Shown: piece by piece, positions 16,501 through 22,500 of the stretch | Layout of the letters: each line of letters opens with the position of its first letter | Position numbering within the stretch: the first letter of the stretch is position 1 | Source of the DNA: Nemopilema nomurai | Lineage: Eukaryota > Cnidaria > Scyphozoa > Rhizostomeae > Rhizostomatidae | NCBI GenBank assembly: GCA_003864495.1 | Contig: ML133453.1 | Location: 372,001-436,000 of the forward strand | Reading direction: 5' to 3' | Length of the DNA: 64,000 nucleotides | Notes under the pieces: generated by a model | Database searches by the model: none | What the model saw: the letters and a program-made list of their open reading frames with translations, nothing else | What the model was told of the DNA's origin: nothing | Translations under genes and position numbers: made by a program

Positions 16501-19500
16501 TCTTTTGATATTTAAATTAACGACATGAAAATAAAGTTATCAATGACTTCCAAGTCAAAAAATCGTCTTGGAAGGGTTCCTTGTCAACGCAATTCGAATT
16601 TTCTTAGGTCAGCAGACATGTTCCAAAGCACCAAAGCCAAAGACCAAAGCATTTCTATGTTGATACTTGTAGAACACTCCAAAACACAATAAGCAAGTGG
16701 AAAATGATAAGAGAATCTAATTTTCAATAAAGATATATACGTAGCCATAAACAAAATGCGATTTCAATTTCTAGCTGCTATTGTTCAAAAACTCTTTTTG
16801 CAGAAGACGGTTCCTTGTTTGCTGCTTTTCTCTGTGCCAAAACCTCATGTAACACTTCAGCAACTGTCCTCCGTTGTCGTCCAGAAACTACGCGCTTCTG
16901 TTGTAATTTTGAGACGCCCTTAGGTCCCTCTGTTTCTTTTCTGGGGAACAAATAGGGCTTTCTTTCCTTACCAATCGTTTCGACAGTTCTATCATTGTAA
17001 GCCTCGTCGAATTCACTTTCTTGGCCATTTTGTCCGTGTAACATCCTTCGTTTCAGCTCATGAGAACTTCCTGGCTCTGTTTTTGATTTATCATTAGTCG
17101 AACCTTCATATGATTGCCTTCTCGAAATCTCCGCAAAGTCATCATCATCTTTTTTCAAGTCAGCCCGGATCTTTGCATCTAGTTCGTTTAATTCAATATC
17201 ATCATCTTCATTTGCCCCCTCACTTTTAGCATGTTTGCTGGCACCTGTGTGAAGCTCTTCATCTCCTTTTTCTCCGGTCTTTCTCGCTACTTTCTCTACT
17301 CTGTTGCTTGACTCTCCGTCTTTCTGCTGGTCTTCGTTCTTTTTCAAAAGTGCATCCTGATTTTTCTTCCATTCCAACCAGCTCAAGTAGGAATTGCAAG
17401 TATCTTTGTCTTCATTTCCTTCTTGACAACTTTTCATGAATTCAGAGGCACTGCTGTCTTCTTGGCCATTTTCCTTTCCATCAGTATCTACTTTTGTGTC
17501 ATCAATGTTTCGTGTAAGCCGAGCCCCTTCGCCTTCCGCTTGCTTCTCTTTCATGAGATTGTAGAAGGAATCACATACCTCGATGCTCTCTGTTCCGTCT
17601 TCACAGGCCTTTTTAAACTCATCCACTTCTTCACTACTTTCAAAATCAACTTTGTCGCTCTCTTCTTCTTCTGGGTTAAAATCGCTTCGTTTCGAGCGAA
17701 GATGGTTGTTTTCCTCATTTTTCTCTCGAATCAGACTAAAAAAAGAGTCACAAACATCCTTGCTCTCTCTTCCCTCCTCGCAAGCCTTTTTGAAGGCTTC
17801 CATCTCCGTGTCAGACTCAATATTATTGGTACTTTGTCTTTTGGAACGAGGGTGAGATTTGTCTGAAGGAATTTGCTCTAGTGCTCTTTGCTGAGCTTGT
17901 TTCCATTCTAGCCATTTGTTGTAGGAGTCACAAGTTGCCTTGTCTTCGTTCCCATTGTCACACTCTGTCTTGAAGTCGTCTTCATCTGATTGCTGCTTAC
18001 CATTTTCTGTGCCAGATTCTCTCTTTGTGCGCGAATTTGAGTTGTCGGAAGAGGACTTTTCAAGTGCACTCTGGTGAGCTTGTTTCCATTCTAGCCATTT
18101 GTTGTAGGAGTCACAAGTTGCCTTGTCTTCGTTTCCATTGTCACACTCTGTCTTGAAGTCGTCTTCATCAGATTGCTTGTGACCATTTTCTGTGCCAGAT
18201 TCTCTCTTTGTGCGTGAATTTGAGTTGTCTGAAGAGGACTTTTCAAGTGCACTTGGTGAGCTTGTTTCCATTCTAGCCATTTGTTGTAGGAGTCACAAGT
18301 TGCCTTGTCTTCGTTCCATTGTCACACTCTGTCTTGAAGTCGTCTCATCAGATTGCTTGTGACCATTTTCTGTGCCAGATTCTCTCTTTGTGCGTGAATT
18401 TGAGTTGTCTGAAGAGGACTTTTCAAGTGCACTTGGTGAGCTTGTTTCCATTCTAGCCATTTGTTGTAGGAGTCACAAGTTGCCTTGTCTTCGTTTCCAT
18501 TGTCACACTCTGTCTTGAAGTCGTCCTCATCAGATTGCTGCTTACCATTTTCTGTGCCAGATTCTCTCTTTTTGCGCGAATTTGAGTTGTCGGAAGAGGA
18601 CTTTTCAAGTGCACTCTGGTGAGCTTGTTTCCATTCTAGCCATTTGTTGTAGGAGTCACAAGTTGCCTTGTCTTCGTTCCCATTGTCACACTCTGTCTTG
18701 AAGTCGTCTTCATCAGATTGCTTGTGACCATTTTCTGTGCCAGATTCTCTCTTTGTGCGCGAATTTGAGCTGTCGGAAGAGGACTTTTCAAGTGCACTCT
18801 GGTGAGCTTGTTTCCATTCTAGCCATTTGTTGTAGGAGTCACAAGTTGCCTTGTCTTCGTTCCCATTGTCACACTCTGTCTTGAAGTCGTCTTCATCAGA
18901 TTGCTTGTGACCATTTTCTGTGCCAGATTCTCTCTTTGTGCGCGAATTTGAGCTGTCGGAAGAGGACTTTTCAAGTGCACTCTTGTGAGCTTGTTTCCAT
19001 TCTAGCCATTTGTTGTAGGAGTCACAAGTTGCCTTGTCTTCGTTCCCATTGTCACACTCTGTCTTGAAGTCGTCTTCATCAGATTGCTTGTGACCATTTT
19101 CTGTGCCAGATTCTCTCTTTGTGCGTGAATTTGAGTTGTCTGAAGAGGACTTTTCAAGTGCACTTTGGTGAGCTTGTTTCCATTCTAGCCATTTGTTGTA
19201 GGAGTCACAAGTTGCCTTGTCTTCGTTTCCATTGTCACACTCTGTCTTGAAGTCGTCTTCATCAGATTGCTTGTGCCCATTTTCTGTGCCAGACTCTCTC
19301 TTTTGCGCGAATTTGAGTTGTCGGAAGAGGACTTTTCAAGTGCACTCTGGTGAGCTTGTTTCCATTCTAGCCATTTGTTGTAGGAGTCACAAGTTGCCTT
19401 GTCTTCGTTCCCATTGTCACACTCTGTCTTGAAGTCGTCTTCATCAGATTGCTTGTGACCATTTTCTGTGCCAGATTCTCTCTTTGTGCGCGAATTTGAG

Positions 19501-22500
19501 CTGTCGGAAGAGGACTTTTCAAGTGCACTCTGGTGAGCTTGTTTCCATTCTAGCCATTTGTTGTAGGAGTCACAAGTTGCCTTGTCTTCGTTCCCATTGT
19601 CACACTCTGTCTTGAAGTCGTCTTCATCAGATTGCTTGTGACCATTTTCTGTGCCAGATTCTCTCTTTGTGCGCGAATTTGAGCTGTCGGAAGAGGACTT
19701 TTCAAGTGCACTCTGGTGAGCTTGTTTCCATTCTAGCCATTTGTTGTAGGAGTCACAAGTTGCCTTGTCTCCGTTCCCATTGTCACACTCTGTCTTGAAG
19801 TCGTCTTCATCTGATTGCTGCTGACCATTTTCTGTGCCAGCTTGTCTCTTGGTGCGAGGGTTAGAGCTTTTCAAGTGGAAAAGCCCTTCAGCTAGCTTTT
19901 GCTTGAGCTTTATCAGGTTGTTGTCCCTTGAGATCTTGTCAAGTATTGCTGTTGCCATCTGCTGCAATGTTCTTACCTCTTTTGAATGTTTGTCGTCCAA
20001 CTTCTTTTACAGAGTTCTGCTTTTGAATATCGCCATCTCCAATTGGATCTGTTTTAGGAATGTAGATGCGATTTGTTTAAAGGTGCATTTGAATATAATT
20101 TTTTTATTGAGTTTATTAATTAATTAATTTATTAATTAACTATTAATTATTTCCCTTCTTTGATGAAAATTGTCGAAAGTTGTTGGTTGACAAGTAACGA
20201 ACAGATATAGTACAAGAAATACCTGCAGAAGGTAGATTGCTTGGCTTTGAAAGGACAGCGTCATTGTAGATAGGAGTTGTTTGAAGGGTCGGAGCATCGG
20301 CCTGTAACATGTAAAATGAATTACACTTTCCTATAAACTTTGAAAGTGCAAAATCCAATTTAAGGTCGGAATAAAAGCAGTTCGGCGAAACATTTTACGA
20401 GATTGTCATCCAAATTTGAAGCCATTAGGCTTGGGTCTATTCATAAAGTTGACTTTAAGTTTGCGAAAAGTAGACTTCAAGTTCATTCTTACAGTTGAAT
20501 TTAAGTTTACGAATAGTAGACCACTTACCGGAATCGGTTTTGCGAACGTCGTCCGTCCGCCTCCATCCGGTCCTGCTCCAAACAGGCAGAAATAGAAAAC
20601 CAAAGTTATTACGATCATGATTATCGTAAGAACTTCACTTGGAATATCACAGAAAGTTACACTTTCAAAACACTAGCAAAATATGGGCATCCGCTGGTGT
20701 CAACAAATAAAAATTTGTGGCGTTGATTGCATATGCAACTGCATAAATGGCGGGACCCACTGTAATCTTACGTCACATAGAAGAAGGCATATTTGGGCGT
20801 CACTTGATCTTCCTGCAGCCCCATGATTGGTTGCCCGATCGACCAATCAGAAGGGCTGGTGAAAGTAAAGTTATCTTTAGCGAAGAAAACGTGCACGAGC
20901 TGATGTTTAAGGTTAAATTAAAAGAATGGTCCTTTACTCTTTGATGTTTTCAACTTCTCTTGCATTATCCAGCAATTTAAGGAACGTGCTAAGAGTCTAA
21001 TATTTGCAGTATTTCGTGTTTCGTAAACTCATTGCTCCCTTATGATAACTAAATATTTTCGTAGATGGTAAATATCTGGCAGTCGGATCACACGACAACT
21101 TCATTTACGTTTACAATGTTTCTGATGACGGCAGGACGTACAAAAAGAGCGGAAAGTTGAGTGTAAGTGGAAATTTTATACAATCGCAACTCCTTCCTTT
21201 TTAAAGAGATTGAGATGAGATAAGAAGGTCAATACACATCAAAATAAAAGTTGGTTGTGAAGCTGGAATACGTCATACCATAGCTCTTTGTGCTCTTTTT
21301 ATTAGAAATCGTTCTGTGTTTTGGTTTGGAAGGCTTTCTGTTGGCATCTAGGACTTTCAAGTAGATTATTGTTTTATGTTCATTCTGAGGGGAGGATTGC
21401 TGCTCAGTTTTTTTATCGTCTCCTCAGTGAAGAAATTGCTCAGCCGTTTGTCACAGAACACCCAGTGGCTGCTAGTAATGAGATTGAATTTTCAAAAGAG
21501 ACGTTTATTGATTCTAAAGCCATTTCCGACCGTTATGTTTTGCATTTGGTTGTCGGAAATTAATCACTTGATGAAGTTGCATCCTCTTTCTAAGAATATC
21601 ACAGGCCTTCTCAAGAAAACCTCAGTGTTGGTGGGCCAAAGGCTTTGTTATTGATGATTTCTTCAACTACATTTTGGTCTGTTCAGGGTCACTCAAGTTT
21701 TGTCACTCACTTGGACTGGTCTAAAGACAGCCAGTACATGCAGAGCAATTCTGGAGACTACGAAATTCTCTACTGTAAGTATGTGACACTGCTTCAGAGT
21801 GACGTTATCCAACCTTTCTCCTACATTTCAATGATTTAATCATTGTGGAAAAAGAGCTCCTACCTGGTCTCATTATTGTGCAGATGATCTAGAACTAGAG
21901 TGCAAATGATATGTAAGTTTGATTGTGCAATGGACTGATGCAAGTCGGTTCTAACTTTTGCTTTGCAAATCAGACTCTCTCCCGTTGGTCTTTGTTCGTA
22001 GATTTCGTTTCGGCTTCTAGATTCGAACTAAAGTTAGCGGGATGTCACCTTGTTTGGTATGTTTCTTTAGGGCACGCTCCTTCATGTCGGCAGATTGTTT
22101 CTGCTGCGTCGATGAAGGACACAGAATGGGAGACATGGACTTGTGTACTTGGGTTTCCAGTAATAGGTAAGAAGCTTGTTTTCCTCATTAGTAATTGGCA
22201 ATATATGTACCATTTAATCATTAGGGTTTAGAAGAATTTAGAAATGCAGCTCAAACAAAGGCATTTTAACAAGGAATATGCTATCAGTATACATTAAAAT
22301 CACTGATTGAACGATGGAAAAACGGTGATTCAGGATTGCATGGTATGATGTCATTTAAGGTTACGGTAAACGTTTTCAACACGAAAATTGGTTTTTCCTT
22401 CCTAAAGGCCAAACTGTTCAAGGAATCTGGGTAAACTATGTATCATTCGATGCACAAGATTATGGTGTATCTAGCCAGATCAAAATTATTGGCAAATAAT

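Follow-up and report, generated by a model that had tools for sequence, protein, structure and literature searches.

A tandemly amplified gene of the jellyfish Nemopilema nomurai predicted to encode a secreted precursor of two-cysteine modules with furin-type joints

The stretch of DNA analysed here, in the following called the window, comprises 64,000 nucleotides of the scyphozoan Nemopilema nomurai (GenBank assembly GCA_003864495.1, contig ML133453.1, positions 372,001 to 436,000; C87:372001-436000 in our numbering) out of a genome of 212.9 Mb in 226 contigs. It contains, on the minus strand at 16778-20618, what is almost certainly a real coding gene. Judged from its sequence, the encoded protein is very probably secreted, and it is likely to be cut between its modules, each of which carries a C-x9-C pair. 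We moderately favour the view that this polyprotein would supply, in bulk, many acidic, disulphide-closed hairpins and a conserved C-terminal peptide.

The gene has three exons, with the ATG at 20618 and the stop at 16778. Exon 1 (20529-20618) encodes the signal peptide and is followed by a GTAAGT donor; exon 2 (20223-20301) has 79 nucleotides, a TTACAG acceptor and a GTATTT donor and finds 13 matches in the C87 array of gene copies described below; exon 3 (16778-20048) contains the pro-region, the module array, the tail and the stop codon. In this copy exon 3 shows several frame breaks, and its intact counterpart, with an open frame, is found in a copy on contig C48 (L027:2570-4932). A frame-tolerant search gave 11 homogeneous and three diverged modules for the gene. 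The homogeneous modules (17837-19870, 5' boundary approximate) have 61 residues and mostly R-T-K-R ends, and their tandem DNA unit is 183 nucleotides long, with 10.8 copies and 96% matches (17880-19856). The diverged modules were delimited as D1 (17687-17836, 50 residues, R-S-K-R end) and D2 (17510-17686, 59 residues, R-L-T-R end) and D3 (17294-17509, with an arbitrary 3' boundary), which has no furin site directly after it. The predicted C-terminal peptide, starting with TVAEVL (16781-16867), follows R-Q-R-R.

The module motif F-x3-C-x2-G-x-E-x4-C-x-S-[FY] was found 58 times on the minus strand of the window, 12 of these matches lying within the gene. Since 50 mononucleotide shuffles of the window yielded no match, a chance origin of the motif was ruled out, and coding on the plus strand was ruled out with zero plus-strand matches in the window. 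A precursor of 61-residue C-x9-C modules at this position had been proposed in a sequence-only reading made before our analysis, and the 183-nucleotide repeat and the motif counts bear this out. The signal peptide start stands, but the gene lies on the minus strand, has two introns and is not a single open frame in this copy. The R-T-K-R end that it gave for the homogeneous modules applies to most of them, while some end in R-K-K-R. The diverged modules do not follow the same scheme, given the lengths and ends of D1 and D2 and the missing site after D3. The array, the frame breaks, the relatives, the C-terminal peptide and the EML host gene described below had been overlooked.

The signal peptide was called from hydropathy and pattern. 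The highest 12-residue hydropathy of the intact Nemopilema protein falls in the start encoded by exon 1, and a near-identical start, in which the signal peptide and KPIP recur, is present in two of the six homologues identified (P0003 and P0004).

Conservation and cleavage sites were counted in seven proteins, namely the intact Nemopilema copy and the six homologues (P0001-P0006), which together contain 65 modules. The modules were located by C-x9-C, so that both cysteines were given beforehand. Besides these, G, E and S are invariant in all 65, F is present in 64 and the D before K in 62; 130 of the 140 cysteines of the seven proteins belong to C-x9-C pairs. All 58 gaps between modules carry a furin-type site (R-X-[KR]-R in 56, R-X-X-R in the other two), and none of the 70 R-X-[KR]-R sites lies inside a module core (positions -14 to +24 of the first cysteine), compared with 0.18-0.53 per protein expected from shuffling. 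Convertase sites are thus located between the folded units and never inside them. In silico cutting at R-X-[KR]-R gave 75 fragments of more than 20 residues, of which 60 have exactly two cysteines, with isoelectric points (pI) of 4.07-5.84. Their length is 46-59 residues in 56 cases and 202-227 residues in the other four, which consist of D3 plus tail. Eight matches to the proprotein-convertase P-domain were found in the genome. The signal peptide, the furin-type sites between the modules and the single possible disulphide per acidic module, all claimed in the sequence-only reading, are supported.

The structure of the module was predicted with AlphaFold in two runs. For a 503-residue open reading frame (ORF) of the window, aligned with the six homologues, a helix-turn-helix was obtained in all five modules, with predicted local distance difference test (pLDDT) values of about 60-82 for the blocks and mostly below 50 for the linkers (mean 49.6, predicted template modelling score 0.18). 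For a single module aligned with nine other modules of the window, helices were placed at residues 12-22 and 27-52, with a pLDDT of about 89 around the turn and a mean of 71.9. The cysteines, at positions 20 and 30, lie beside the helical turn. The module is therefore predicted to have a G-x-E-D-K turn flanked by two helices, the cysteines being placed for a disulphide, and a disulphide hairpin in each module appears likely from these models. Because the alignments were shallow, we take the models as support and not as proof. CHCH proteins likewise combine two helices with C-x9-C spacing, having two CX9C motifs per hairpin. The jellyfish module differs in that it has one C-x9-C, which brackets the turn, and belongs to a protein with a signal peptide; furthermore, no CHCH family appeared among the Pfam hits of the window ORFs and the seven proteins.

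In the working that we propose, the signal peptidase would expose the pro-region and each module would close its disulphide in the endoplasmic reticulum. A furin-type convertase would then cut the disordered linkers, and a carboxypeptidase would trim K and R from the cut ends. Each gene copy would yield roughly 7-19 acidic hairpins of about 46-59 residues, together with a larger fragment containing the D3 hairpin and the C-terminal peptide starting with TVAEVL. The products, secreted by epithelial or gland cells, might serve as carriers, in a barrier, in defence or as a granule matrix. If the precursor is cut, peptides of about 59 residues with one disulphide and ends at R-T-K-R are to be expected. 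The module core of 57 residues by itself has a reduced mass of 6426.5 Da, and removal of K and R only would give 59 residues, so that the peptides should lie at about 6.4-6.7 kDa. The following points weigh against this working. The signal peptide is present in only two of the six homologue models (P0001, P0002 and P0006 start inside the protein, P0005 starts differently); the first module of P0004 is degenerate, lacks the first cysteine and stands outside the 65; and copy number is the sole basis for the step to a bulk product.

The family could not be matched to any described one. A Pfam search with three window ORFs and the seven aligned proteins gave only scattered hits, such as YebG, VMAP-M5 (3.8e-8), PTR (2.3e-8, two of the seven members), IpaC_SipC (3.8e-8, one member) and DUF240. 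Since no family was hit in more than two of the seven, we consider these hits low-complexity or repeat noise, and the identities PTR, VMAP-M5 and IpaC_SipC were dropped for the same reason; PF12789 (PTR) is also the precomputed Pfam label of P0001 and P0002. In the prokaryote library NCBIfam, two of the proteins gave TrpR (0.001) and an OmpA-type family (0.024), both far below the cut-off. The best matches in the PDB by sequence were unrelated (E 0.4 and 0.5), and a Foldseek search of the PDB with the single-module model gave no match, the hairpin being too small to be informative. In the parts of the literature covered, which did not extend to the original paper on the Aurelia precursor CL390 or the 2018 Rhopilema strobilation transcriptome, we found no description that we recognised as that of this precursor family. 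Within these sequence, fold and literature searches the earlier statement that the family is unrecognised holds.

The same six homologues, or some of them, came back from each of three protein searches (E 2e-212 to 2e-167). The named one, from the scyphozoan Rhopilema esculentum, is labelled 'myb-like protein X'; this generic label is the only public name encountered for the precursor family, to which no Pfam family applies consistently. A Rhopilema quantitative trait locus gene called 'Myb-like protein X' was not counted as a member, since its table lists it with an SGNH hydrolase domain. Neither a profile search nor one with the tail alone added any relative to the six. Diverged relatives may have been missed, because in two of the homologue searches scoring was confined to the candidates with the most shared words, 7984 in one and 7990 in the other.

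To arrange the modules, a tree of 48 modules and 33 columns was calculated after removal of within-protein duplicates. It separates a D1/D2 class (100/99) from a homogeneous class (98/97), and each of the two contains rows from Nemopilema and from the relatives; the D3 rows are placed nearer to the homogeneous class and are not set off by any strong fork. On this tree the diverged modules are classes common with the relatives and not decayed copies. The homogeneous modules of Nemopilema cluster together (93/73), a grouping expected from homogenisation within a lineage. In the Rhopilema protein P0006 the amplified class is the D class and not the homogeneous one, which shows that lineages can differ in the class of module that they amplify.

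The gene is part of an array. A nucleotide search of the genome gave 29 matches in two clusters, with 14 copies at C87:389-504k and 14 copies at C48:921-1056k, and the total number of gene copies is at least 28. A protein search of the genome with P0003, in which 54 of 184 candidates were scored, found at least 85 matches, all inside these two clusters. By frame-tolerant search the 14 copies of the C87 array contain 152 modules, with 5-17 homogeneous modules in each of the 13 copies that are free of N gaps. One copy of the other array (C48:931518-935401) appears in two pieces, separated in or beside D2 by about 3.5 kb of intervening DNA. The flanks of the two clusters agree to 96.0% over 4.86 kb, and one match to the HELP domain lies beside each cluster, in mirrored orientation. 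For these reasons, we take the two arrays as two haplotypes of one locus, although a recent duplication may have produced the pair instead. Within the C87 array, the gene copies at 479400-482000 and 487493-490093 show no difference over 2,600 bases; an N run of 1,209 bases lies close by, and the identity may reflect a recent duplication or a duplication in the assembly. Immediately past the last C87 copy there are 25,088 N (C87:503861-528948), and the array may continue into this run.

The numbers of gene copies (at least 14 per haplotype) and of modules (about 150) tip the balance slightly towards a bulk product rather than a hormone of the classical amidated neuropeptide type. A known system of this kind is the family of nematode polyprotein allergens/antigens (NPA, PF16469; ABA-1, gp15/400), in which a signal peptide precedes near-identical helical units and some diverged ones. 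Their joints are furin-type R-X-[KR]-R sites, each unit has one disulphide and a conserved Trp, and the proteins are secreted in bulk. The NPA unit is a lipid-binding bundle of about 130 amino acids that binds fatty acids and retinol. The jellyfish precursor has the same layout of tandem units with R-X-[KR]-R joints behind a signal peptide, but its units are two-helix hairpins of about 46-61 amino acids, less than half the size of the NPA unit. NPA was absent from the Pfam hits of the seven proteins, and the profile PF16469 had no match in the genome, a weak negative as 14 control genomes were silent too.

The precursor could also be a prohormone, with the modules or the conserved C-terminal peptide as signals that act through a receptor and may take part in the life cycle of scyphozoans; we consider this unlikely. 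A signal peptide, at least three similar units and cleavage sites of basic residues do make up the layout of the scyphozoan neuropeptide preprohormones. In addition, R-Q-R-R followed by TVAEVL is kept in the Nemopilema copy and in P0002, P0003, P0005 and P0006, with R-Q-P-R and TVTEVL as a variant in P0001; P0004 has no tail. In our reading of the alignment no other part of the tail is as well kept as this peptide. Its pI is 10.0-11.1 in the four relatives with R-Q-R-R and 8.2, nearly neutral, in the Nemopilema copy. Possibly, this single-copy peptide is the real signal of the precursor. On the other hand, at least 14 copies per haplotype would be odd for a hormone gene and, to our knowledge, unusual. 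Scyphozoan neuropeptides carry GR or GK amidation-cleavage sites after their copies, whereas here Gly occupies the amidation position at only 2 of the 70 R-X-[KR]-R sites, and the modules are long. Six families have been described from scyphozoans, short amidated peptides of which one has a two-cysteine ring (PMC6909153), and as far as described there, none resembles the jellyfish modules of about 46-59 amino acids. The script used in that study seeks GR and GK sites (PMC6909153); a screen built on such sites would probably miss this precursor.

A second scyphozoan precursor to be compared is CL390, which acts in Aurelia strobilation and is described with arginine repeats and the sequence WSRRRWL (PMC4334923, PMC10433978, PMC5744923). 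According to the excerpts of these reports, it shares with our precursor the scyphozoan origin, a signal peptide and many basic residues (PMC4334923, PMC10433978, PMC5744923). WSRRRWL is found in none of the seven proteins and RRR in one of them. The absence of WSRRRWL is a weak test, because a Red Sea CL390-like protein reportedly lacks it too, in the passage available. Since the precursor differs from NPA, from the scyphozoan neuropeptides and from CL390 as described, we file it as a furin-joined polyprotein, a known kind, with a new module.

It is also possible, and in our view quite improbable, that most of the array consists of pseudogenes or is a repeat inflated by the assembly, with perhaps one or two copies that matter. 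Several observations weigh against an intact, functional array. All 14 C87 copies and four of the five C48 copies examined (of 14) carry at least one frame break, some breaks are common to several copies, and two C87 copies are identical near an N run, as mentioned above. The tails of 18 copies contain 51 frame-shifting indels (2.77 per kb), a rate that is not below that of noncoding DNA, which is 2.74 upstream (15 copies), 1.68 in the 3' flank (2 copies, 3 indels) and 1.23 in intron 1 (5 indels). Nine of the 33 frame-changing tail sites are common to more than one copy, which suggests that some breaks may be inherited, and as only 4 of the 18 tails are free of such indels, there may be true pseudogenes among the copies. 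Of the 32 one-base deletions 19 lie in homopolymers, which make up 48% of bases, a slight enrichment only, and 3 of the 76 modules of exactly 183 nucleotides translate with a stop, which we take as the result of offsetting indels. Finally, the ratio of nonsynonymous to synonymous substitution rates (dN/dS), pooled at 0.58, is 0.69 for distinct variants with a bootstrap range of 0.46-1.08, which reaches neutrality.

Against a pseudogene array stands first the lack of nonsense substitutions, with none observed compared with 9.4 expected: stop-creating substitutions number 0 versus 5.6 in the tails of the 18 copies (Poisson P 0.0037) and 0 versus 3.8 in 134 filtered homogeneous modules (Poisson P 0.022). 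Second, 32 one-base deletions in the tails face two one-base insertions, and such an excess of one-base deletions is typical of long-read consensus error; we read most of the frame breaks as errors of this type, in a repeat whose polishing is difficult. Third, one of the five C48 copies examined is open throughout and with GT-AG splicing encodes 843 residues with nine modules, and long open reading frames are present in homologues from other genomes.

The polyprotein might furthermore remain uncut in vivo, as a long and acidic secreted protein of the granin type, belonging to a matrix or to granule cores, with basic linkers that bind partners or are cut in part. The acidic helical modules, the many dibasic sites and the low-confidence linkers would suit such a protein. 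The distribution of the R-X-[KR]-R sites, almost complete in the gaps and absent from the cores, is more exact than basic charge requires, and we regard this possibility as very doubtful. In cnidarian venoms, near-identical genes occur in tandem and precursors may comprise several units with dibasic sites, and modules homogenised within a lineage would fit nematocyst or venom-type peptides amplified through concerted evolution. With one disulphide, a strongly acidic character and no toxin families among the hits, such an origin is very unlikely. The terms 'myb-like', 'uncharacterized' and 'hypothetical protein' are absent from the main text of the Rhopilema/Sanderia venom proteome as far as available (PMC7766711), which is weak evidence.

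Besides the gene described, the minus strand of the window carries four further copies that include their signal-peptide exon, as well as an incomplete sixth one; the units are spaced by 7.7-10.9 kb. The second (26795-29377, ATG at 29377) has a frame break inside the signal-peptide exon. The third (34567-39259, with 17 homogeneous modules), the fourth (45209-48136) and the fifth (54278-56968) are frame-broken as well, and the sixth (61934-64000) is truncated by the window end.

On the plus strand, stretches matching the EML second propeller were found on both sides of the precursor gene. A probable EML-type host-gene exon (16046-16150, 3' end approximate) covers profile positions 63-96 with a weak E of 0.18 and found no match in the PDB. 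The next exon (21064-21163, 3' end approximate) covers positions 92-127 (E 1.8e-7) and has EML1 as its best PDB match (E 6e-10); it is followed by stretches at 21651-21830 (119-156) and 23521-23700 (174-217). The stretches are collinear with the profile and the precursor lies between them on the antisense strand, an arrangement that reads as a precursor nested antisense within an intron of the EML gene. Distal EML-type exons (21064-24300 on the plus strand of the window, and in other tandem units) recur with the precursor copies in both arrays. A still wider interpretation would be that of an EML-nested amplified polyprotein, undescribed in the sources searched and so far observed in scyphozoan-type genomes only, representing an independent case of NPA-like mass production, with the C-terminal peptide as a possible signal and a tie to strobilation or medusa epithelia; taken as a whole, we think it improbable.

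Two further repeats were observed. At L026:1-1500 (C48:916001-917500), close to where the C48 array has its other edge, there is a different tandem repeat, whose frames read ELNQVHQQVALV, with a unit of about 175-180 nucleotides by eye. In the window, a 12-bp minisatellite, ATGATGATATTA, occupies 10088-10351 with about 21 copies.

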